This document shows, piece after piece, positions 9,744 through 26,946 of a stretch of 64,000 bases of DNA (positions are counted from its first letter, which is position 1; each line of letters begins with the position of its first letter). The notes below the pieces were generated by a model. It was given only the letters and a program-made list of their open reading frames with translations. It was not told the DNA's origin and made no database searches. The translations under genes were made by a program, and so were the position numbers. Location: NCBI RefSeq assembly GCF_000981765.1, contig NZ_CP010975.1, positions 1 through 64,000 of the forward strand, given 5' to 3'. The stretch is from Kangiella geojedonensis (lineage in GTDB: Bacteria; Pseudomonadota; Gammaproteobacteria; Enterobacterales; Kangiellaceae).

Positions 9744-10407
9744 GATCTACCTTAATTGTAAGTTGCTGTTTATTTTCATAGGCCTCAACGGAAGCCAGAA
9801 AAGAATTCAGTTGCTCAGACGGCAACTGTGACATTATAACGACTTTGTCGGAGAATTGTTCTTTGATATCTTGAGCTTGATGTTCTTCAAGTAAGTACCG
9901 TATTTGATTTTGCAGATCGTAGGATACCTCTATTTCAACAGCGGTTGTATAAATACGTTGGTGAGTACTTACTATGCTTAAAGCTTCTTTAACTCCTCCA
10001 CTATAAGCTCTAGCTAAGCCACCTGTCCCAAGTTTTGTGCCGCCATAATAGCGAGTGACCACGGCGGTAATATCACCAAGTCCAGAGTGGGTGAGCACAT
10101 TGAGCATGGGCATACCTGCAGTGCCGCTAGGCTCGCCATCGTCAGAACAAGCCATTAGCGTTGTACTATCAGGGTTACCGACAATATAGGCCCAGCAATG
10201 GTGGGTGGCGTCGGGTTCGTCGGAGTTCAGTTGCTTGATAAATGCCTTTGCTTGTTTAACGGAAGGCGTAAAAACAATTCGAGTGGTGAAGCGACTTCCC
10301 TTGATGATTTCTTCAAAAATGCAGGGTTGGTTAACCGGATGGTTTGGAACTCGATAGGAAGGGGGAGCGGCCGCAGGCTTATCCTGCGGCGCTGTAGGTT
10401 TACTCAT
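9730..10407 (-). CDS. yigZ: YigZ/IMPACT family protein
   Basis: The 225-residue protein carries the UPF0029/IMPACT signature: GSRFTTRIVF, HHCWAY, the SDDGEPSGTAGMPML block, and VVTRYYGGTKLGTGGLARAY. A C-terminal ferredoxin-like domain follows. In eukaryotes IMPACT influences GCN2; the bacterial role is unclear. The first 25 residues are a Pro/Ala-rich extension. It starts three bases after pepQ, the same pairing as in E. coli (pepQ-yigZ). Confidence 0.92.
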   Translation of the reverse strand: MSKPTAPQDKPAAAPPSYRVPNHPVNQPCIFEEIIKGSRFTTRIVFTPSVKQAKAFIKQLNSDEPDATHHCWAYIVGNPDSTTLMACSDDGEPSGTAGMPMLNVLTHSGLGDITAVVTRYYGGTKLGTGGLARAYSGGVKEALSIVSTHQRIYTTAVEIEVSYDLQNQIRYLLEEHQAQDIKEQFSDKVVIMSQLPSEQLNSFLASVEAYENKQQLTIKVDHDSA

Positions 10408-18750: not shown

Positions 18751-19170
18751 GTGGAATTTCAGTGGCAAGCATTGACTGGCGGTATACTGATTGGTCTGTC
18801 CGCAGTTTTACTGTTTATGAGCATGCGTAAAATCGCTGGTATCAGCGGCATGGTAAAGCAGGTGTTGCGTGGCAGTGGTAAGGGCGCTGAGCGCTGGTGG
18901 CCATTAGTGTTCATAGTAGCCTTAATGTTGGGCACTTGGATATACAGTGCTGTGTTTAGTGTCGAATCATCGCTAAGAGAGGGTTATCCGAAGGAGCTTC
19001 TTGTGGCGTCAGGATTACTGGTTGGTTTTGGAACCTATATCGGCAAAGGCTGCACCAGTGGACACGGAGTTTGCGGCATCGGGCGCTTATCAAAACGATC
19101 AATTGTTGCGACTGTTGTCTTTATGTTGTGTGCTGTGATTACCGTTGCTGTGATGGGAGCTGTGTCATGA
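18751..19170 (+). CDS. YeeE/YedE-family sulfur transporter, first half
   Basis: A 139-residue membrane protein with about four helices and the motif GKGCTSGHGVCGIGRLSKRS, diagnostic for the YeeE/YedE (DUF395) family; YeeE proper carries thiosulfate through conserved Cys residues. It begins with GTG at 18751. The family occurs either as one long protein or as two adjacent halves, as here (PmpA/PmpB-like arrangement in BigR operons). Its stop overlaps the start of the second half as ATGA. Confidence 0.85.
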   Translation: MEFQWQALTGGILIGLSAVLLFMSMRKIAGISGMVKQVLRGSGKGAERWWPLVFIVALMLGTWIYSAVFSVESSLREGYPKELLVASGLLVGFGTYIGKGCTSGHGVCGIGRLSKRSIVATVVFMLCAVITVAVMGAVS

Positions 19171-19571
19171 AGAAACTAATAACAGCTTTGATTTGCGGTA
19201 CCTTGTTTGGTTTTGGTCTCGCCATGTCACAAATGATTGATCCGGATAAAGTTCAGGGTTTTCTGGATATTTTTGGTGACTGGGATCCAACGCTGGCGTG
19301 GGTGATGGGCGGAGCTTTATTAATATCCATACCAGGCTTTGCTCTGTTACTGACTAAAGACGAAAAAGCTCACATTAAACAAGGCGTGATAGACAGCAAG
19401 TTATTAGTCGGGAGTGCGCTCTTTGGCGTAGGCTGGGGCTTGAGTGGTTATTGCCCTGGGCCAGCGTTAAGTGTGGCCCCACTGATTATCACTGAACTAT
19501 TGTGGTTCTTAATTCCACTGATAGTGGGCATGGTTCTGGCTGGCGCCATTTTTGGTAAAGAGCAAGACTAG
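19167..19571 (+). CDS. YeeE/YedE-family sulfur transporter, second half
   Basis: From the ATG at 19167 this gives 134 residues starting MKKLITALICGTLFGFGLAM, with four helices and the conserved GLSGYCPGPAL motif. A longer reading from 19071 runs through the preceding gene in another frame and gives an implausible Cys-rich start, so I reject it. The four-base ATGA overlap with the first half implies coupled synthesis, and the two halves likely form one channel for thiosulfate or a related sulfur species. Confidence 0.87.
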   Translation: MKKLITALICGTLFGFGLAMSQMIDPDKVQGFLDIFGDWDPTLAWVMGGALLISIPGFALLLTKDEKAHIKQGVIDSKLLVGSALFGVGWGLSGYCPGPALSVAPLIITELLWFLIPLIVGMVLAGAIFGKEQD

Positions 19572-19581
19572 AGTCGCTAAC

Positions 19582-19965
19582 TTAGCAGCTAGATACTTCT
19601 CCATTCGAGCTTTGCCACTGTTTGAAGCCACCAGCAACAGAGGCTACCTTGCTAAATCCAATGTGTTGCAAGGCTAACGCAGCACAAGCAGAACGACCAC
19701 CAGAAGCACAATAGAGATACACAGGTACCTGCTGTGCTTCTTCTTGCGATAGATCTTTAAATTGTGGCAAGTCAAAAATCTTAAATTCAAGGACTCCCCG
19801 AGGTAAGGGTGTTGCGTTTGGAATAATGCCTTGTTGATGCTCTTGAGGTTCACGGACATCTAGTAACACAGCGTTTGTGAGGTCAGTTTGTTTCAGTTGA
19901 TCGATGGTAATTTCAGAAATTTGTGACTTTACAGACTGTAGGTAGTCGATAACGCAAGGTTTCAT
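19582..19965 (-). CDS. Rhodanese-like sulfurtransferase
   Basis: A single rhodanese domain of 127 residues with DVREPQEHQQG and the active-site loop CASGGRSACAAL, in which the first Cys would carry the persulfide. I place the start at the ATG at 19965, which overlaps the stop of the ArsR gene as ATGA and has AAGGA nine bases before it; an ATG two codons earlier (19971) is also possible. It is cotranscribed with the ArsR sensor and probably handles persulfide sulfur with the neighbouring dioxygenase. Confidence 0.87.
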   Translation of the reverse strand: MKPCVIDYLQSVKSQISEITIDQLKQTDLTNAVLLDVREPQEHQQGIIPNATPLPRGVLEFKIFDLPQFKDLSQEEAQQVPVYLYCASGGRSACAALALQHIGFSKVASVAGGFKQWQSSNGEVSSC

Positions 19966-20282
19966 GAGCATTCGTCCTTACAAAATAGTTTATGCAATAA
20001 GTGAATAATTTGAGCAGCTTCATTTGATGATAAGCTGTAATAGATCGTTTGCGAGTCGCGGCGAGTGGTAACAAACCCTTCTTTGCGTAATAGTGCGAGG
20101 TGTTGCGACAATGCTGACTGGCTTAAATCTGGGAGCAGGTTATTAAGCTGGCCAACAGAAAGTTCTTCTTCATGCAAAATACATAAAATCAATAACCGTT
20201 GTTCATTTGATATATTCTTCAAGAAACGAGCAGCTTCAGCCGAATTTTTTTGCATTGCATCGGTAATGTTTGAAACGTTCAT
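19962..20282 (-). CDS. ArsR-family persulfide-type sensor (BigR/SqrR/YgaV-like)
   Basis: A 106-residue winged-helix repressor: SNEQRLLILCILHEEELSVGQL, recognition helix LSQSALSQHLALLRKEG and the wing TTRRDSQTIYYSL. Cys34 in the first helix and Cys101 near the C-terminus sit where BigR and SqrR have their redox pair, which forms disulfide or polysulfide links and releases DNA. No metal-binding CxC is seen. It is coupled to the rhodanese gene and divergent from nothing; a TATTAG half-site lies upstream. Confidence 0.87.
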   Translation of the reverse strand: MNVSNITDAMQKNSAEAARFLKNISNEQRLLILCILHEEELSVGQLNNLLPDLSQSALSQHLALLRKEGFVTTRRDSQTIYYSLSSNEAAQIIHLLHKLFCKDECS

Positions 20283-20354
20283 TGAGATTCCAGCCTATAA
20301 TATTAGTCTTATTTTGCCTTAGTGCGCGTGTTTTCGCAATTTTAAGCTTGACCC

Positions 20355-21818
20355 TCACAAGGGATTAAAGTCAGCTAAGGACTTAAGAGTCTTGCCTGTA
20401 TTTTTGGGTCGAAACTCACCAGAGCTTTGATCAAAATCATAATCCTTGGACCAAGCTTCTGCGTTTTCAATAACTTTCAGAATTGAGTCGACCAAAAAAT
20501 GGGCCTCTTGGTCGGTGTTCGTTGGGTGGAGCGAAACCCTAACCCAGCCAGGTTTATCGGTTAGATCTCCTTGATCAATTCGATTGGTGATTTCATGGCT
20601 TTGTAGCTGATCGACGCCGAGTAACAGATGACCATAGGTGCCTGCGCAAGAGCAACCCCCTCGGCTTTGTACCCCAAACCGATCATTAAGTAAACGCACC
20701 AGTAAATTATGATGAATACCAAGAACATAAAAAGAAACGATACATAAGCGGTCGTCTTGTTGATCCTCAAGAATTCGGATGTCAGGGTGTTGTCGTAAAC
20801 CCTGTAGTAAGATCTTAACCAGCTCTTCTTCACGTGCTTGTATTTTATCGACCTGCATTGCGTCTTTAAGTTTGATCGAAAGAGCAGCCTTAATGGTTTG
20901 CAAAAAAGCAGGTGTACCACCATCTTCACGGGCCTCAATATTGTCAAAGAATCGATGCTCGCCCCAGGGATTGGTCCAAGACACGGTGCCGCCCCCCGGT
21001 TGATCAGGGACTTTGCAGTCGTAAAGCTTGTCATCGAAAATCAAAATGCCACTACTACCAGGGCCACCTAAGAATTTATGTGGGGATAAGAATATTGCGT
21101 CTAAGCGCTGCTCAGGGTTTGCAGGGTGCATGTCGATATCAACATAAGGCGCTGAAGCTGCAAAGTCGATAAAGCAAAGACCATCATACTGATGCATGAT
21201 CTCAGCCATCTCGTGATAAGGGGTGGTAATACCCGTGACATTGCTACAGGCAGTGAATGATCCAATTTTGACCGGGCGATCTTTATAGTGCTCTAGTAAG
21301 TCTCGCATATGCTGTAAATCGGGGCGTCCTTCGTCAGTCGATCGAACGATCTCTAAGGTCACTTCACACTCATGCCATGTGGTTTGGTTGGAGTGGTGCT
21401 CCATATGGGTGACTAAGACTAGCGGCTTTTCATGCTCTGCAATCTGTAGCCGTTCGCGCCACTTTTCTGGCACTCGCAAGCCCAACATACGTTGGAATTT
21501 GTTAATGACCAGAGTCATTCCTGAACCCGCGGCGATTAAGACATCACTATCATAAGCGTTAACGTGTTGCTTAATGATTCTTTGAGCATCATGGTAAGCC
21601 TCGGTCATTGTAGTGCCAGTCAGTGTCGTTTCGGTATGCGTATTAGCTACATAAGGCCCTAATTCATGACTGATAAAATCTTCAATAGGACGGTATAAAC
21701 GACCACTTGCAGTCCAGTCAGCATACAAAATGTTGCTATTATGGCTCGACTCAGAGTAATCGTGAGATTGTCCAATAATGTGTTCTCTGAAACGAGAAAA
21801 ATGGTCTGTTAAGCTCAT
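20355..21818 (-). CDS. Class V aminotransferase-fold PLP enzyme (cysteine desulfurase-like)
   Basis: A 487-residue fold-type I PLP enzyme. The Lys in LSPHKFLGGPGSSG is the expected PLP anchor; other marks are NTHTETTLTG, AAGSGMTLVIN, and the C-terminal SRGGCSCAGTYGH, where Cys residues occupy the region of the desulfurase active-site loop. The length exceeds IscS (about 404). The substrate is not known; relatives are annotated only as class V aminotransferases. It lies just before the sulfur module on the same strand as its sensor, which makes a sulfur role plausible but unproven. Confidence 0.8.
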   Translation of the reverse strand: MSLTDHFSRFREHIIGQSHDYSESSHNSNILYADWTASGRLYRPIEDFISHELGPYVANTHTETTLTGTTMTEAYHDAQRIIKQHVNAYDSDVLIAAGSGMTLVINKFQRMLGLRVPEKWRERLQIAEHEKPLVLVTHMEHHSNQTTWHECEVTLEIVRSTDEGRPDLQHMRDLLEHYKDRPVKIGSFTACSNVTGITTPYHEMAEIMHQYDGLCFIDFAASAPYVDIDMHPANPEQRLDAIFLSPHKFLGGPGSSGILIFDDKLYDCKVPDQPGGGTVSWTNPWGEHRFFDNIEAREDGGTPAFLQTIKAALSIKLKDAMQVDKIQAREEELVKILLQGLRQHPDIRILEDQQDDRLCIVSFYVLGIHHNLLVRLLNDRFGVQSRGGCSCAGTYGHLLLGVDQLQSHEITNRIDQGDLTDKPGWVRVSLHPTNTDQEAHFLVDSILKVIENAEAWSKDYDFDQSSGEFRPKNTGKTLKSLADFNPL

Positions 21819-21914: not shown

Positions 21915-22397
21915 CTAGAATGAAGAGGTGGCATTATAACTCTTGATGCCATCAGGTCTTAAACCTTTACCCATACGGATGTGTAAAATAACTTCTGTTG
22001 TTAGCGCTGGCTCTGATGGTTTGAACTGGTTTTTAAACTGTGGGTTAGAGTAGTTAGATTGTTGGCATTTATCTTGGCTGCATTCGGTTCGTTGGATCCT
22101 GTTAGTTTTAGAATTAACGAGTTCTTCAATCACCAGATAGCGTTGAACAATGACAAACCAGTCAAATTGCATGCGTTGAGTCAGTAAGCGGGAATGATCG
22201 AGAGCAAGAGCTTCTGCTTCATCAGGGCTGTTATGGAGAATTTTGTAATGGACACGGTACAGATTGTCCGTAACTTCAGTTGCGTATGGACCCTGGCCTA
22301 CTGAGTGAGTAGGGTGATAACGGTATTGTGACGAACAGCCAGCGATCAATAATAAAACACCGAGAAGAGCCGTTCGAAAATTGAGAGGCGCGCACAT
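21915..22397 (-). CDS. Lipoprotein of the ECF sigma operon, unknown function
   Basis: Starting at the ATG at 22397 it has 160 residues: MCAPLNFRTALLGVLLLIAGC is a lipoprotein signal with lipobox LIAGC. The mature part has no domain I recognise; it contains RTECSQDKCQQ, a possible disulfide, and a C-terminal segment TTEVILHIRMGKG. The start overlaps the anti-sigma stop as TAATG, so it is translationally coupled and is the third gene of the sigma/anti-sigma operon. It may sense or relay the envelope signal, which is inference from position. Confidence 0.75.
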   Translation of the reverse strand: MCAPLNFRTALLGVLLLIAGCSSQYRYHPTHSVGQGPYATEVTDNLYRVHYKILHNSPDEAEALALDHSRLLTQRMQFDWFVIVQRYLVIEELVNSKTNRIQRTECSQDKCQQSNYSNPQFKNQFKPSEPALTTEVILHIRMGKGLRPDGIKSYNATSSF

Positions 22398-23119
22398 TAT
22401 TGAGACTGCCAATGATTATCAATGGCTTCATTCTCTTGAGAGCGATTAAGGAATGAGCCTTTGAGCGTGGAATCGAGCAAGGCATCCAGTTCGGGGTGAA
22501 CTGAAGCGGTGCGATAAGTATCTGGGCTGCTAGCGTCAGTAGGAAGCCTTGAGTGGAGTTGCCAAGAGTTTCCGGTGTTGCATGCGATGTTAATATGGGC
22601 TTCAGCCGCTGAGCGTAAAGTGAAAAGACGACAGTAATCATCTTTTGTATTAATGAAACTGGCTTGAATGTTGAGATCCCACTGAGAATCTAAAGTAAAA
22701 ACTTGATCGCTAGGCTTTTGGGTTAAATGTTGAGAAATTGTATCCCAATCAGGATTATATGAGCCGGGACTTGACCCTAAAAAAACACCGATAGTGACGC
22801 CAAACGTCAGAATAAATACGGCAGCAATCGCAATGTGCTCTCGAACAGAATGACTGGCTTTGCGCCAAAAAGACATCTCTATAACGTTTGACGGTGAAGA
22901 AGACTGACTTTTAGCCATTAATTGTTCGGTTGATTGTGGTAACGGTTTACCATCAATCGCATGCACAGTTGAACTGACTAGGTGATCGACCATAGTTAAT
23001 TCAGCAACTCTATCGGAAATAGTTTCGTCGTTCGCGATAAGGTCTCGAATGGCATCCATTTCTTGTGCTGGAAGCTCGTTATCAATGAATGCACACAGCT
23101 GTTGATCAGTAATCGTCAT
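22397..23119 (-). CDS. Anti-sigma factor, single-pass membrane protein
   Basis: A 240-residue protein with a cytoplasmic N-terminal domain (ITDQQLCAFIDNELPAQEMDAI, typical of anti-sigma domains, but without the zinc HxxxCxxC motif), one membrane helix at about 95-115, and a 120-residue periplasmic domain. It overlaps the sigma gene by four bases. The expected role is to hold the ECF sigma factor at the membrane until an envelope signal releases it. Confidence 0.85.
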   Translation of the reverse strand: MTITDQQLCAFIDNELPAQEMDAIRDLIANDETISDRVAELTMVDHLVSSTVHAIDGKPLPQSTEQLMAKSQSSSPSNVIEMSFWRKASHSVREHIAIAAVFILTFGVTIGVFLGSSPGSYNPDWDTISQHLTQKPSDQVFTLDSQWDLNIQASFINTKDDYCRLFTLRSAAEAHINIACNTGNSWQLHSRLPTDASSPDTYRTASVHPELDALLDSTLKGSFLNRSQENEAIDNHWQSQ

Positions 23120-23622
23120 GCGAATATCCTCATATCTTGATCCTTAAACCAATTAACCATAGCAACACGAGCACGAGAAATACGGCTCATTACGGTTCCA
23201 ATCGGGATGTCTAGAGTGCTAGCGACTTCTTTATAGCTTAAACCTTCAACCACAACCAAAGACAAAATAGATCGAAGTTCTTCAGGCATTTGATTCATTG
23301 CACGTTGAACTTGGGCAATGGTAATCTGGTTGGTAATGATTTTATCACCATCAACTGCTGATTCTTGAAGTTCGGGTTTTTGAGTGGCGTCTTGACGAAC
23401 TTTACGAGAGCGGTATTCATCTATCCACAAATTACGACAAACTCGGAAAGCCCACTTAGTAAGGTGGACATCATCAGGAACGCCTTTATCTAAAATACGC
23501 TCTAAGGTATTCTGCATTAGATCATCAGCATCATGATCGGATCCTGTTAGCGAAAACGCAAAGCGTCTGATCGCTGGGATCAACTCTTGAAGCTCTTTGT
23601 TCATCGAGAAACTTGTACTCAT
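23116..23622 (-). CDS. ECF-type RNA polymerase sigma factor
   Basis: A 168-residue sigma factor with region 2 (FAFSLTGSDHDADDLMQNTLERI, WAFRVCRNLWIDEYRSRK) and region 4 (MPEELRSILSLVVVEGLSYK, EVASTLDIPIGTVMSRISRAR) and nothing between. It is followed by its anti-sigma factor and a lipoprotein. Upstream lies a promoter-like motif shared with the divergent subtilase gene, which suggests autoregulation. The subgroup cannot be fixed without a search. Confidence 0.92.
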   Translation of the reverse strand: MSTSFSMNKELQELIPAIRRFAFSLTGSDHDADDLMQNTLERILDKGVPDDVHLTKWAFRVCRNLWIDEYRSRKVRQDATQKPELQESAVDGDKIITNQITIAQVQRAMNQMPEELRSILSLVVVEGLSYKEVASTLDIPIGTVMSRISRARVAMVNWFKDQDMRIFA

Positions 23623-23639
23623 ATTGGTATTAACCGTTA

Positions 23640-23661
23640 CACCCTATAACAAGAAGACGTT
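23640..23661 (-). promoter_or_regulatory. Candidate ECF promoter of the sigma operon
   Basis: On the minus strand: AACGTC, seven bases, TATA, two bases, GTG (equivalently AAC, 16 bases, GTG). AAC is the usual core of an ECF -35 element. The same arrangement with the same spacing occurs at 23711-23732 in the opposite direction before the subtilase. Confidence 0.55.
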
Positions 23662-23710
23662 TCAACTCCAGATTTTATTCAAAGAAATTGAGAATTTTTT
23701 ACAGACAAGG

Positions 23711-23732
23711 AACGTCATTATTATATAAAGTG
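23711..23732 (+). promoter_or_regulatory. Candidate ECF promoter of the subtilase
   Basis: GGAACGTC (the GG at 23709-23710 included), then TATA and GTG at exactly the spacings seen on the opposite strand at 23640-23661. GGAAC is a typical ECF -35. The subtilase ATG follows 27 bases later. Confidence 0.55.
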
Positions 23733-23758
23733 ATGATTAATGTAATTTAGGAACATGT

Positions 23759-25114
23759 ATGAATCGATATATCATATTCAGCGCACTATTGACCGTATTG
23801 TGTACGGAGGGCAATGCTGCAGCGGATATAGGGAATAAAGCGCTAGAAAGTATTAACAATAAAATTCTTAATGAATCGATAATAAAAGATAAAATAAAGC
23901 ACGATAAGGAGTTTTATAAAGAGTTGCCGAGAGAAGTGGTGGGGGAGATTAATCAAAGCTTAAACAGAATTGATGCTGTGGCGGAAACGACCATTAATCC
24001 CTTGAAGCAAGACGTTGCTGTTACCGAAATAAAAAACACCATAGGGCAAACTGTCTATGTGGAGGTTGAAGTTGAAGATGGTTGGCGTGCTATAGACAGG
24101 GAGTGGTTGATTACAGTTAACAGTGACGAGGTGAGATTGTTAGAAACGCTAGGGGCGGAGATAAAGGAGCACCAAAAATTAGATAATCTAGAGTTATTAG
24201 TCGTTAGGTTCAAGATTCCCAGTAACCAGAACGAAAAAGATATTATTGAGCAACTACCTGAGCGATTGAAGAAGCAACTGGGAAGAAATCATGTGTATGA
24301 AGCCAGTCAAAGCCATAGTAATGGGGATGATAAAGCACAGGGAAATAAAATTCTTGATAGTGTTTGCAATAAGCCCATAAAGGTTGGCATGATTGATACG
24401 GCTATAAATACTAATCACCCAACGTTTAAAGCAGTAGACATCAAGCAAAAACAGTTCATGCAAGAAGCAGTTAAAACGCCTACAGCTCATGGTACTGCAG
24501 TGGCCAGTTTACTAGCAGGAAAGGATCAGCTGACTCCCTTATTGTCTCAGGCAACCCTGTATGCCGCGTCGGTATTTTACCCTCGTAATAATTACTCGCA
24601 GGGGGCGCCATTAATTAATTTGATAAAGGCGTTAGACTGGTTAGCAGGCGAAAATGTGGAAGTCATCAATATGAGCTTAACGGGACCTGAAAATCCTATT
24701 TTAGAGGCTGCGATTAATCAGGCTTTAAAACAAGATATTACAATAGTCGCTGCGGCAGGCAATGAAGGTCCTGCTGCATCACCACGTTTTCCAGCGGCGT
24801 ATAAAGAGGTGATAGCGGCAACGGCGGTTGATAGTAACAATGATATCTACCGCTGGGCAAACCAGGGAGAGTATATAGATTTTTCAGCGTTGGGCGTTCT
24901 AGTTAAAACTGCAAGAGTAAGTAACGGCAGTAGTTATGAGTACGGTTTGGAAAGTGGAACGTCAATTGCAACGCCAGTAGTAACGGCTAAAGTGGCCTGC
25001 CAAATTGTTAAAGACAAAGCGAAGAAAACTATAATCAGCAACTTAGAATTAGAAGCTATTGATTTAGGAGAGCCTGGAAGGGATCCTGTCTATGGTTATG
25101 GTAAATTAGAATAA
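23759..25114 (+). CDS. Exported subtilase (S8 family serine peptidase)
   Basis: A 451-residue secreted peptidase. Signal peptide about 1-21 (MNRYIIFSALLTVLCTEGNA), a 170-residue charged N-terminal region likely acting as a propeptide or inhibitor, then the catalytic domain: Asp213 (VGMIDTA), His244 (AHGTAVAS), oxyanion Asn335 (AAAGNEG) and Ser402 (SGTSIATP). No C-terminal sorting domain is visible; the protein ends soon after the fold. It is divergent from the ECF operon and shares its promoter motif, so it is probably a member of that regulon. Confidence 0.9.
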   Translation: MNRYIIFSALLTVLCTEGNAAADIGNKALESINNKILNESIIKDKIKHDKEFYKELPREVVGEINQSLNRIDAVAETTINPLKQDVAVTEIKNTIGQTVYVEVEVEDGWRAIDREWLITVNSDEVRLLETLGAEIKEHQKLDNLELLVVRFKIPSNQNEKDIIEQLPERLKKQLGRNHVYEASQSHSNGDDKAQGNKILDSVCNKPIKVGMIDTAINTNHPTFKAVDIKQKQFMQEAVKTPTAHGTAVASLLAGKDQLTPLLSQATLYAASVFYPRNNYSQGAPLINLIKALDWLAGENVEVINMSLTGPENPILEAAINQALKQDITIVAAAGNEGPAASPRFPAAYKEVIAATAVDSNNDIYRWANQGEYIDFSALGVLVKTARVSNGSSYEYGLESGTSIATPVVTAKVACQIVKDKAKKTIISNLELEAIDLGEPGRDPVYGYGKLE

Positions 25115-25158
25115 AAAAGCATCCTTGCTAAAGGGGAAGTCTCCATAATTGACTCTGT

Positions 25159-26055
25159 TTATAGCTCTACCTTGAAAAGTAGACTAATTTCATTAGCACT
25201 ATAATCAGCTGATTCAAAGTTAGAGCTTGATTCAGTACTTTCTAACTGAGTGGCCAATGCAAACTTTGGCGTAAAATAGTAATCCCAAGCTAAGCGAAAA
25301 GTGTTACGACTATCCTCTCTAACTTGGCCAATGTCTGGGAGTTGCGCTTGATACTGTCGATCAAAATAACGCCAATGTAGTTGTAATCGGTGATTATCAT
25401 TAGCGCCAAATTTACTGGATAAAGTTGCACGATAGTTGTCACCGTCATAACTGTATTCTGCCGAACTAGCAGCTTCCTCGTCCGCAGAGTAACCTATGGA
25501 AAAGAAACTTTTTCCTTGGTTGAAGAAAAAATAAGCATCAAGCCCTAGAGCATCGTTGGTAGCATCACGCTCTGGAATAGAATCAAATGTTTTATCAATG
25601 GTTATAGCTTCAGCTCGAACGAAAATACTGTTGTTAAATAATTTGGAGAGATAAAAACTGTCGCGACTCATATCTAAAAAGTTGTCACCGGCTAGTTCAG
25701 CATTAATGTCATGATGACTAGCACCGACTGTAAGAACAGTAAAGTCGTAAGCAATATCACCAAATAGACGATGGACTCTTAAATCAAAGTCGTCACTGTC
25801 TTGGTAATCTGTATCAGACAAATTATAACCTGCCTGGACGTTTAAGTTGTCCGCAACAATCCAGTCGCCGCTTACATCTAAAGATAAATATCGAGCTGTA
25901 TCACCATTGTTGTTAAGCTGATCAATTTCTTCTACGACCAACTCTGAGTTGTAAACGATCCCGGCTTCGGCAGTAAGCTCATACTCTGACTGAATATCTG
26001 CCAGAGCTGCATGACTAACAGCCAATATCGGTAAAGGTAACAAAAGCTTTTTCAT
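25159..26055 (-). CDS. Outer-membrane beta-barrel-like protein, unknown function
   Basis: A 298-residue exported protein: signal peptide MKKLLLPLPILAVSHAALA, then nearly continuous short amphipathic strands with alternating aromatic and polar residues (for example FFSIGYSADE, HRLQLHWRYFDRQY, TFRLAWDYYF). This is the look of a 12-14-strand outer membrane barrel, resembling surface-lipoprotein assembly modifier (DUF560/Slam) barrels, but the terminal residue is Leu rather than Phe or Trp. It is downstream of the Ala/Ser-rich gene, separated by an intrinsic terminator. Confidence 0.7.
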   Translation of the reverse strand: MKKLLLPLPILAVSHAALADIQSEYELTAEAGIVYNSELVVEEIDQLNNNGDTARYLSLDVSGDWIVADNLNVQAGYNLSDTDYQDSDDFDLRVHRLFGDIAYDFTVLTVGASHHDINAELAGDNFLDMSRDSFYLSKLFNNSIFVRAEAITIDKTFDSIPERDATNDALGLDAYFFFNQGKSFFSIGYSADEEAASSAEYSYDGDNYRATLSSKFGANDNHRLQLHWRYFDRQYQAQLPDIGQVREDSRNTFRLAWDYYFTPKFALATQLESTESSSNFESADYSANEISLLFKVEL

Positions 26056-26073
26056 GAATAGCTCCTTTGGGAC

Positions 26074-26101
26074 AAAGAAAGAGGCCAGATGAGCTGGCCT
26101 C
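26074..26101 (-). terminator. Intrinsic terminator/attenuator between the Ala/Ser-rich gene and the barrel gene
   Basis: On the minus strand GAGGCCAG and CTGGCCTC form an eight-base stem with a five-base loop followed by TTTCTTTG. It lies after the Ala/Ser-rich gene and before the barrel gene, whose ATG is at 26055. Partial read-through would give much more of the first product than of the second. Confidence 0.75.
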
Positions 26102-26112
26102 AGAATTAAACA

Positions 26113-26946
26113 TTATTGATCGATAGGTAAGCGATCTTTAATACTATCGATGATGTTTTCATCAACTGCATCTTTCACTGAAGTGCTAATTTCAGCACCG
26201 ATTGCAGATTCAACATTAGCTTCTACTGATTTATTGACGCTGGTTGAAACTTCGGCATTGATTGACGCGTCAGCCGAAACATCAGTGTTTTGATTAACAT
26301 TTGACAAGGTGTCATTTGCCGTTTCCAAAGCGCTAGAGGCAGCATTAACCCCTGCGGTGGCAGCTTGATTAGCATTTGTGCTGGCGCTTTGAGTAGCTTC
26401 AGTAGCGACAGAAAGAGTACTCGTAGTATTTTGCTCTAGGCTACTTTCTGCATTGCCTTCGGCACGCCCTTCTGTGCTAGCTTCATTATTATCTTCAGCA
26501 GCGTTACTATCATCGCCTGCTGATTCCATCGCTCCACTATTATTGCTTGCTTCTATAGCGGTATCCAAACCAAGAGAAGCTGCTGTATTTGCTTTACCTG
26601 AAGTATTATTGGTTGCATTGGCGACGGTGTTTACTCCTGATTGGCCTTCAGCTTGAACAGAGCTATTGATATCTGTTGCTTGCTCTTGGGTTTCATTTTG
26701 CGCTGTATCGCCCGTTGAGATAACCGTTGCTTGTGCCTGTGATGCTGCTTCAGATGAAGCTGTAACGCCAGACTGAGCTGTCTGATTTGCCTGTGCCGTA
26801 GTTGATTGAGTTGTTTGGGTAGCCGTTGAAACATCCACTGAGGATGAGGTGTTGGCCTCTGCGTCAGCACCTGCCTCTGCAGATAGAGTGACTTGGCTTG
26901 TAAGTGCTAATGCAGCGAAAATAGTAGAATACTTAAAAATTGTCAT
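26113..26946 (-). CDS. Exported acidic Ala/Ser/Thr/Asn-rich low-complexity protein
   Basis: A 277-residue protein with a signal peptide (cleavage probably after LSA at 21-23). The mature part has no Phe, Tyr, Trp, His or Cys and only a few Lys/Arg, and is strongly acidic. It contains loose repeats around GV (60-61, 104-105, 199-200) and a clear tandem 20-residue repeat at 229-248 and 249-268 sharing AE(V/I)STSV. The codon usage keeps a long open frame and the signal is good, so it is a real gene. No family recognised; the composition suggests an extended, matrix or surface protein. Confidence 0.75.
   Translation of the reverse strand: MTIFKYSTIFAALALTSQVTLSAEAGADAEANTSSSVDVSTATQTTQSTTAQANQTAQSGVTASSEAASQAQATVISTGDTAQNETQEQATDINSSVQAEGQSGVNTVANATNNTSGKANTAASLGLDTAIEASNNSGAMESAGDDSNAAEDNNEASTEGRAEGNAESSLEQNTTSTLSVATEATQSASTNANQAATAGVNAASSALETANDTLSNVNQNTDVSADASINAEVSTSVNKSVEANVESAIGAEISTSVKDAVDENIIDSIKDRLPIDQ

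Follow-up and report, generated by a model that had tools for sequence, protein, structure and literature searches.

Why should the genes for a sigma factor, a secreted protease, an outer-membrane β-barrel and a low-complexity exported protein lie side by side? The question is raised by six adjacent genes of Kangiella geojedonensis, whose 2.5 Mb genome is a single contig (NZ_CP010975.1); the whole stretch of DNA analyzed, positions 1 to 64,000 of that contig, is referred to as the window. A preliminary description had proposed an envelope gene set with an extracytoplasmic function (ECF) sigma factor, an anti-sigma factor, a lipoprotein, a subtilase, a barrel and an Ala/Ser-rich protein, and a check of the open reading frames (ORFs) found all six intact and open. 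We conclude that the six genes very probably form a single, small ECF sigma regulon that amplifies itself and is read from three promoters. The lipoprotein, anti-sigma and sigma genes lie on the minus strand and overlap or touch at their ends, the subtilase gene is divergent from them, and the barrel and Ala/Ser-rich genes follow, again on the minus strand, with the Ala/Ser-rich gene first. The features are as follows.

21915–22397, minus strand: CC0125/CC1285-family outer-membrane lipoprotein (NF047637, lipobox LIAGC-S)
22397–23119, minus strand: anti-sigma factor (one predicted transmembrane segment, alignment of 21 sequences)
23116–23622, minus strand: ECF sigma factor (Pfam Sigma70_r2 and r4_2)
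23680–23656, minus strand: sigma-type promoter of the sigma operon, GAATAAA...CGTC, GAATAAAATCTGGAGTTGAAACGTC (motif in 21/22 loci)
23692–23717, plus strand: sigma-type promoter of the subtilase gene, GAATTTT...CGTCA, GAATTTTTTACAGACAAGGAACGTCA (motif in 14/22 loci within 200 nt)
23759–25114, plus strand: secreted subtilase (PF00082, catalytic residues)
25159–26055, minus strand: 14-stranded outer-membrane β-barrel (AlphaFold2 model)
26081–26101, minus strand: GC-rich hairpin with a T-rich tail, lying between the genes for the exported protein and the barrel (probable partial terminator)
26113–26946, minus strand: Ala/Ser-rich exported protein (signal peptide, composition)
27010–26985, minus strand: sigma-type promoter of the exported-protein and barrel operon, GAATAAA...CGTCA, GAATAAATACCTCTCCTCAGCCGTCA (motif in 21/23 loci)

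Conservation of the Gene Set

Relatives were sought in 40 genomes of the family (20 of them in Kangiella), 247 genomes of the order and a phylum sample of 398. Within Kangiella, the anti-sigma, subtilase, barrel and Ala/Ser-rich genes stand side by side in eight genomes, which is every genome that has the set; the other 12 of 12, two of which are incomplete assemblies, lack orthologues of the anti-sigma, barrel and Ala/Ser-rich genes. The block lies between comM and an aminotransferase gene in most carriers, with insertions in a few. Across the order, strong barrel and strong anti-sigma matches occur in exactly the same 13 genomes, from three families, and all are syntenic apart from Pleionea mediterranea (G036), where the exported-protein/barrel pair is on a different contig from the sigma/anti-sigma/lipoprotein/subtilase block. 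Gene order is kept in genomes G069, G230, G239, G125 and G189, and the same set is found in two Pseudocolwellia, within the order, and in Erythrobacter, Qipengyuania and Sphingomicrobium (Sphingomonadales, Alphaproteobacteria). The phylum sample added one genome with the full set (G592) and one in which the barrel has a low-complexity exported partner and sigma genes are absent from the vicinity (G607). The barrel and exported-protein genes are adjacent in every lineage, the orphan G607 pair included. The set is thus conserved far beyond chance, the check on relatives that the preliminary description had proposed, and its view of the six genes as one system is borne out by their synteny and joint occurrence across several families and two classes.

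In another Kangiella genome (G019; L107, about 9900–10330), the sigma, subtilase, barrel and exported-protein genes are gone between comM and the lipoprotein gene. The lipoprotein gene is kept together with a 39-codon remnant of the end of the anti-sigma gene. The pattern resembles a joint deletion of module genes.

A Promoter Motif Common to Three Transcription Units

Alignment of the intergenic regions revealed a single motif in three reading directions. We surveyed 23 loci from 22 genomes for GAATWW-N13–16-CGTY within 200 nt upstream of each gene, taking expected counts from shuffled sequences. The motif precedes sigma in 21 of 22 loci (0.16 expected), the exported-protein gene in 21 of 23 (0.17 expected) and the subtilase gene in 14 of 22 (0.21 expected). 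It was absent from the 200 nt before the barrel's own start in all 23 loci, so the barrel would be served from the promoter of the exported-protein gene, and it was found before none of 13 flanking genes. The two exceptions at the exported-protein gene are G189, which has a one-base variant, and G607, which has neither the motif nor sigma genes in the stretch. The subtilase promoters of G036 and G230 fall just beyond the 200 nt limit, and in the Sphingomonadales loci the subtilase gene lies 3′ of the barrel gene on the same strand.

In Pleionea, where the sigma-subtilase part and the barrel pair are unlinked, the motif is kept at both. The exact pattern GAATWW-N15-CGTCA, the only form searched for genome-wide, has nine matches in the 2.5 Mb genome; two are promoters of this cluster and the other seven overlap ORFs. 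The distribution of the shared motif across loci is strong, though indirect, evidence that the barrel and exported-protein pair belongs to the sigma regulon. That the sigma operon and the divergent subtilase gene have the same promoter motif had been recognized earlier, and both copies (GAATAAAATCTGGAGTTGAAACGTC, minus strand; GAATTTTTTACAGACAAGGAACGTCA, plus strand) were found again here. The third copy, before the Ala/Ser-rich gene (GAATAAATACCTCTCCTCAGCCGTCA), had been overlooked.

The hairpin at 26081–26101 has an equivalent in the other Kangiella genomes whose exported-barrel interval was fully extracted. It is a probable partial terminator, and its position between the two genes predicts that more exported protein than barrel is made.

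Sigma Factor, Anti-Sigma Factor, and Lipoprotein

The sigma factor matches Sigma70_r2 (PF04542, 41.9 bits) and r4_2 (PF08281, 60.8 bits), both above the Pfam cut-offs, as well as TIGR02937 (77.9 against a cut-off of 42.9). With sigma-70 regions 2 and 4 only, it is classed by sequence as an ECF sigma factor. The anti-sigma gene overlaps it by four bases, and the predicted product has a cytoplasmic sigma-binding N-terminus, one transmembrane segment near residues 95–115 and a periplasmic domain. Residues C163, R164, A179, C180, W186, Y202, T204 and A205 of that domain are invariant in 21 aligned sequences. Taken alone, the window protein had no Pfam match, FecR included. Among its relatives, 12 of 21 match RseA_N and 14 of 21 match zf-HC2, the domain types of class I membrane anti-sigma factors, at E 0.1, with one (L120) exceeding both cut-offs; eight of 21 have a weak similarity to DUF5061 (17 kDa antigen). 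The family profile found no credible sequence relative in the PDB.

The lipoprotein belongs to the CC0125/CC1285 family by score (NF047637, 58.5 bits against a cut-off of 40) and lipobox. In the alignment, the lipobox Cys is invariant and is accompanied by two further Cys. Translation most likely starts at the ATG at 22397, which overlaps the anti-sigma stop codon (TAATG), not at the alternative TTG at 22412. A literature search on the CC0125 lipoprotein found nothing relevant.

The Secreted Subtilase

The subtilase scores 119.4 bits against PF00082 (cut-off 21.8). It has a signal peptide, a helical linker, an I9-like propeptide at about residues 95–185 (judged by eye) and an S8 catalytic domain at 205–448 with D213, H244, N335 and S402. 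The Asp/His/Asn/Ser set aligns with that of subtilisin BPN′ and is invariant in nine relatives, which places the enzyme in peptidase family S8. In G592, G125 and the Sphingomonadales, the subtilase N-terminus contains a four-residue repeat of the kind seen in exported partners (autocorrelation 0.42 to 0.78); in G125 it is a long VEDD repeat. No relative of the subtilase was found in viral contigs. Three genomes of the same bacterial family (G002, G010 and G013; L066, L067 and L068) have another ECF cluster, in which two large exported proteins and a subtilase that is 32–39% identical to the window enzyme accompany a distant sigma factor and a probable anti-sigma factor.

The Barrel and Its Exported Partner

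The preliminary description had spoken of a barrel-like protein. An AlphaFold2 model from 13 sequences is a 14-stranded barrel (mean pLDDT 92.1, pTM 0.82), in which the first strand starts at residue 22, directly behind the signal peptide, with no periplasmic domain and no plug. Closest among solved folds are CymA (Z 22.0, rmsd 3.1, 264 residues aligned) and OmpG (Z 20.4). A PDB search with the barrel family profile gave no credible relative by sequence.

Besides a signal peptide, the Ala/Ser-rich protein has a net charge of about −30, and beyond residue 25 it is free of aromatic residues and Cys; it matched nothing in Pfam or further family libraries. A hydrophobic residue recurs at every fourth position over its last ~45 residues, and the Kangiella proteins share a conserved C-terminal (I)KDRLPLDR. 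Across lineages the partners differ in sequence and share a style: a signal peptide, an acidic and almost aromatic-free composition and often a four-residue hydrophobic repeat. The repeat is present in the last 90 residues of all 15 gammaproteobacterial partners, with autocorrelations of 0.61, 0.59 and 0.60 at lags 4, 8 and 12 (shuffle standard deviation 0.027). The partners in Sphingomonadales are Glu/Ala-rich with an 11-residue period, and that of G592 is Asp/Glu-rich with a strict four-residue period (autocorrelation 0.86). Such a strict hydrophobic repeat (DDDL/DDEV type) can extend over 200 residues, for example at L183:9903-10646, and also occurs in subtilase N-termini. In G125 (L102:4784-7333), the slot beside the barrel is filled by a lipoprotein with ten DUF5666 repeats, preceded by a sigma-type promoter, as expected if the barrel serves variable cargo. 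A β-type amyloid or solenoid structure for the Ala/Ser-rich protein was considered and set aside, as the low-confidence model is all helix.

A Proposed Mechanism

The gene set, its conservation, the common promoter, the barrel fold and the intact catalytic residues are established from sequence, and a mechanism can be proposed around them. The periplasmic domain of the anti-sigma factor (CR...AC...W...YxTA), perhaps together with the lipoprotein, would sense a signal at the envelope or surface and free the sigma factor. The sigma factor would then transcribe its own operon, the divergent subtilase gene and the exported-protein and barrel operon, a step for which the sequence evidence is strong. 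The acidic, helix-forming exported protein may cross or dock on the barrel, giving a surface or outer-membrane-linked structure; the barrel would be its dedicated partner because the pair is adjacent in every lineage, even apart from the sigma genes. Finally, the propeptide-controlled subtilase may mature or trim the barrel-cargo structure, and an N-terminal extension with a cargo-type repeat, where present, would tether it there. We lean slightly toward this mechanism as a whole, in which a sigma regulon builds and trims a barrel-plus-cargo surface structure.

A narrower form of it is tentative and, in our judgment, probably not the correct one. It would be a sigma-controlled route of outer-membrane export or anchoring, in which a Slam-related barrel without tetratricopeptide repeats (TPRs) moves or holds interchangeable acidic cargo with tetrad repeats, and in some species a subtilase bearing the same tetrads is recruited to process that cargo. 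If true, this would be a new kind of outer-membrane export or anchoring pathway.

Several observations weigh against the proposed mechanism. The closest solved barrel folds, CymA and OmpG, are passive porins. The window barrel has no match to PF04575 (the Slam translocon barrel) at E 0.1. The motif resembles the general ECF consensus, and another ECF sigma factor could also read it. The model of the Ala/Ser-rich protein consists of long helices at a mean pLDDT of 48.6, and the earlier suggestion that this low-complexity protein is matrix-like draws little support from it. Last, in the phylum sample, the other full-length anti-sigma matches whose loci were read belong to a sigma/anti-sigma/subtilase core with no barrel in the stretch; this core lacks a nearby barrel in many Alphaproteobacteria, and the protease can therefore have other targets. 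The preliminary description had held that such an arrangement in related genomes would tell against the link. Within the order, the strong anti-sigma and barrel matches fall in the same 13 genomes, and a sigma-subtilase part without the barrel pair is confined to distant Alphaproteobacteria.

Alternative Explanations

The alternative that survives best, though we consider it unlikely, is a periplasmic stress module in which a simple monomeric porin (the barrel), an acidic protectant or spacer of the periplasm (the exported protein) and a protease for envelope quality control (the subtilase) are all induced together with no joint structure. The similarity of the barrel to two porins fits this explanation, as do the autoregulated sigma operon, judged by its promoter motif, and the acidic, aromatic-poor, helical character of the exported proteins, a composition known from protectant proteins. 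It is harder to reconcile with the constant adjacency of barrel and exported-protein genes, which extends to the orphan G607 pair, and with the pattern of conservation in the barrel. Eighteen of its 23 near-invariant residues are in the outer third of the strands or in extracellular loops (hypergeometric P 0.0003), an enrichment of moderate statistical weight, since 24 of 276 circular shifts reach the observed information difference.

A regulatory loop is slightly less probable again. Here the subtilase would mainly cut the periplasmic domain of the anti-sigma factor or the lipoprotein and so tune the signal, with the barrel pair as a mere output. Several alphaproteobacterial genomes have just the core of sigma factor, anti-sigma factor and divergent subtilase, and control by a subtilase has been proposed for the sigma factors of ECF group 54 (PMC8999054). 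That group has a subtilase/CHAT context and is described as lacking an anti-sigma factor (PMC8999054); the module shares with it an ECF sigma factor with a subtilase neighbor and differs in its conserved, predicted one-pass anti-sigma factor. The signal peptide, moreover, predicts a soluble exported protease, and in G592 and the Sphingomonadales the subtilase N-terminus resembles the cargo and not the anti-sigma factor. Among the barrel-less alphaproteobacterial loci (L185–L192), the subtilase gene of L188 and L191 adjoins one for an exported protein with GGTLGG repeats.

A link to polysaccharide, with an EpsL-like exopolysaccharide barrel, a matrix-bound exported partner and a matrix-remodelling subtilase, is improbable. 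It is suggested by a weak similarity of the C-terminal half of the barrel to EpsL (TIGR03014), seen weakly in relatives too, and by BBP2_2, which 19 of 21 barrel members match. The EpsL score is far under the equivalog cut-off (45.4 bits against 275), and no polysaccharide genes adjoin the module in the loci read. Chance adjacency, to which only the unlinked barrel pair of Pleionea lends anything, can be dismissed with near certainty, being contradicted by the perfect co-occurrence in the order sample, the gene order conserved in several families and two classes, and the promoter shared by all lineages.

Comparison with Known Systems

Returning to the proposed sigma-controlled surface structure, two systems offer parallels. 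The Fap system of Pseudomonas comprises the barrel FapF, the protease FapD and the subunit FapC, and the protease is required for secretion (PMC5557850). Like it, the module brings together in one cluster a barrel of the outer membrane, a protease of its own and a low-complexity exported protein that is probably abundant. FapF, a 12-stranded trimer, has a plug and a coiled coil in the periplasm, and FapD is a C39 cysteine protease (PMC5557850), whereas the module has a 14-stranded barrel with no periplasmic domain, an S8 protease and a partner that is modelled as helical and not of amyloid type, and it includes an ECF sigma factor. In type XI secretion (Slam/DUF560, PF04575), a 14-stranded barrel is encoded alongside variable exported cargo (PMC8406197). 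The module shares a 14-stranded barrel beside variable cargo, and one syntenic relative, in G189, exceeds the PF04575 cut-off (43.1 bits against 22). Unlike Slam, the window barrel has no N-terminal TPR domain and no PF04575 match, and its exported partner, modelled as helical, lacks a TbpBBD domain. FapF and Slam were absent among the best solved-fold matches of the barrel, an absence that does not exclude either. On this analysis the module appears to resemble Fap and type XI secretion somewhat and to lack defining features of both.

Other likenesses are more limited. CymA and OmpG share the 14-stranded fold (Z 20 to 22, with about 260 residues aligned) but only 7 to 10% identity, in another gene context, and a shared fold shows no function. 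FecI/FecR/TonB-receptor signaling differs in that the module has no FecR match and a 14-stranded barrel without a plug in place of the 22-stranded receptor. No description of this gene set turned up in the open literature searched, although the sigma-subtilase core may be mentioned in the main ECF reclassification. The six-gene envelope module is apparently undescribed, and it may represent a new pathway of surface assembly or secretion.

The analysis joins six genes, of which two had no named function, in a very probable regulon; its promoter is defined, and it recurs in Gamma- and Alphaproteobacteria. Should the barrel export or hold the low-complexity protein, repetitive proteins would have a further outer-membrane route, in addition to Fap, curli and type XI secretion. 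In some species cargo and protease have a strict four-residue repeat in common, which poses a separate structural puzzle.

Neighboring Genes and Other Subtilases

Adjoining the module, positions 18751–21818 of the window encode the halves of a YeeE/YedE-like transporter, a rhodanese, an ArsR-type regulator and a class V aminotransferase. These conserved neighbors probably make up their own, sulfur-related set of operons. In all, 21 PF00082 matches were counted in the genome. Outside the window, at 83245–94620 (L202), six secreted subtilase genes (375–768 amino acids) lie in tandem on one strand, apparently a recent family expansion.

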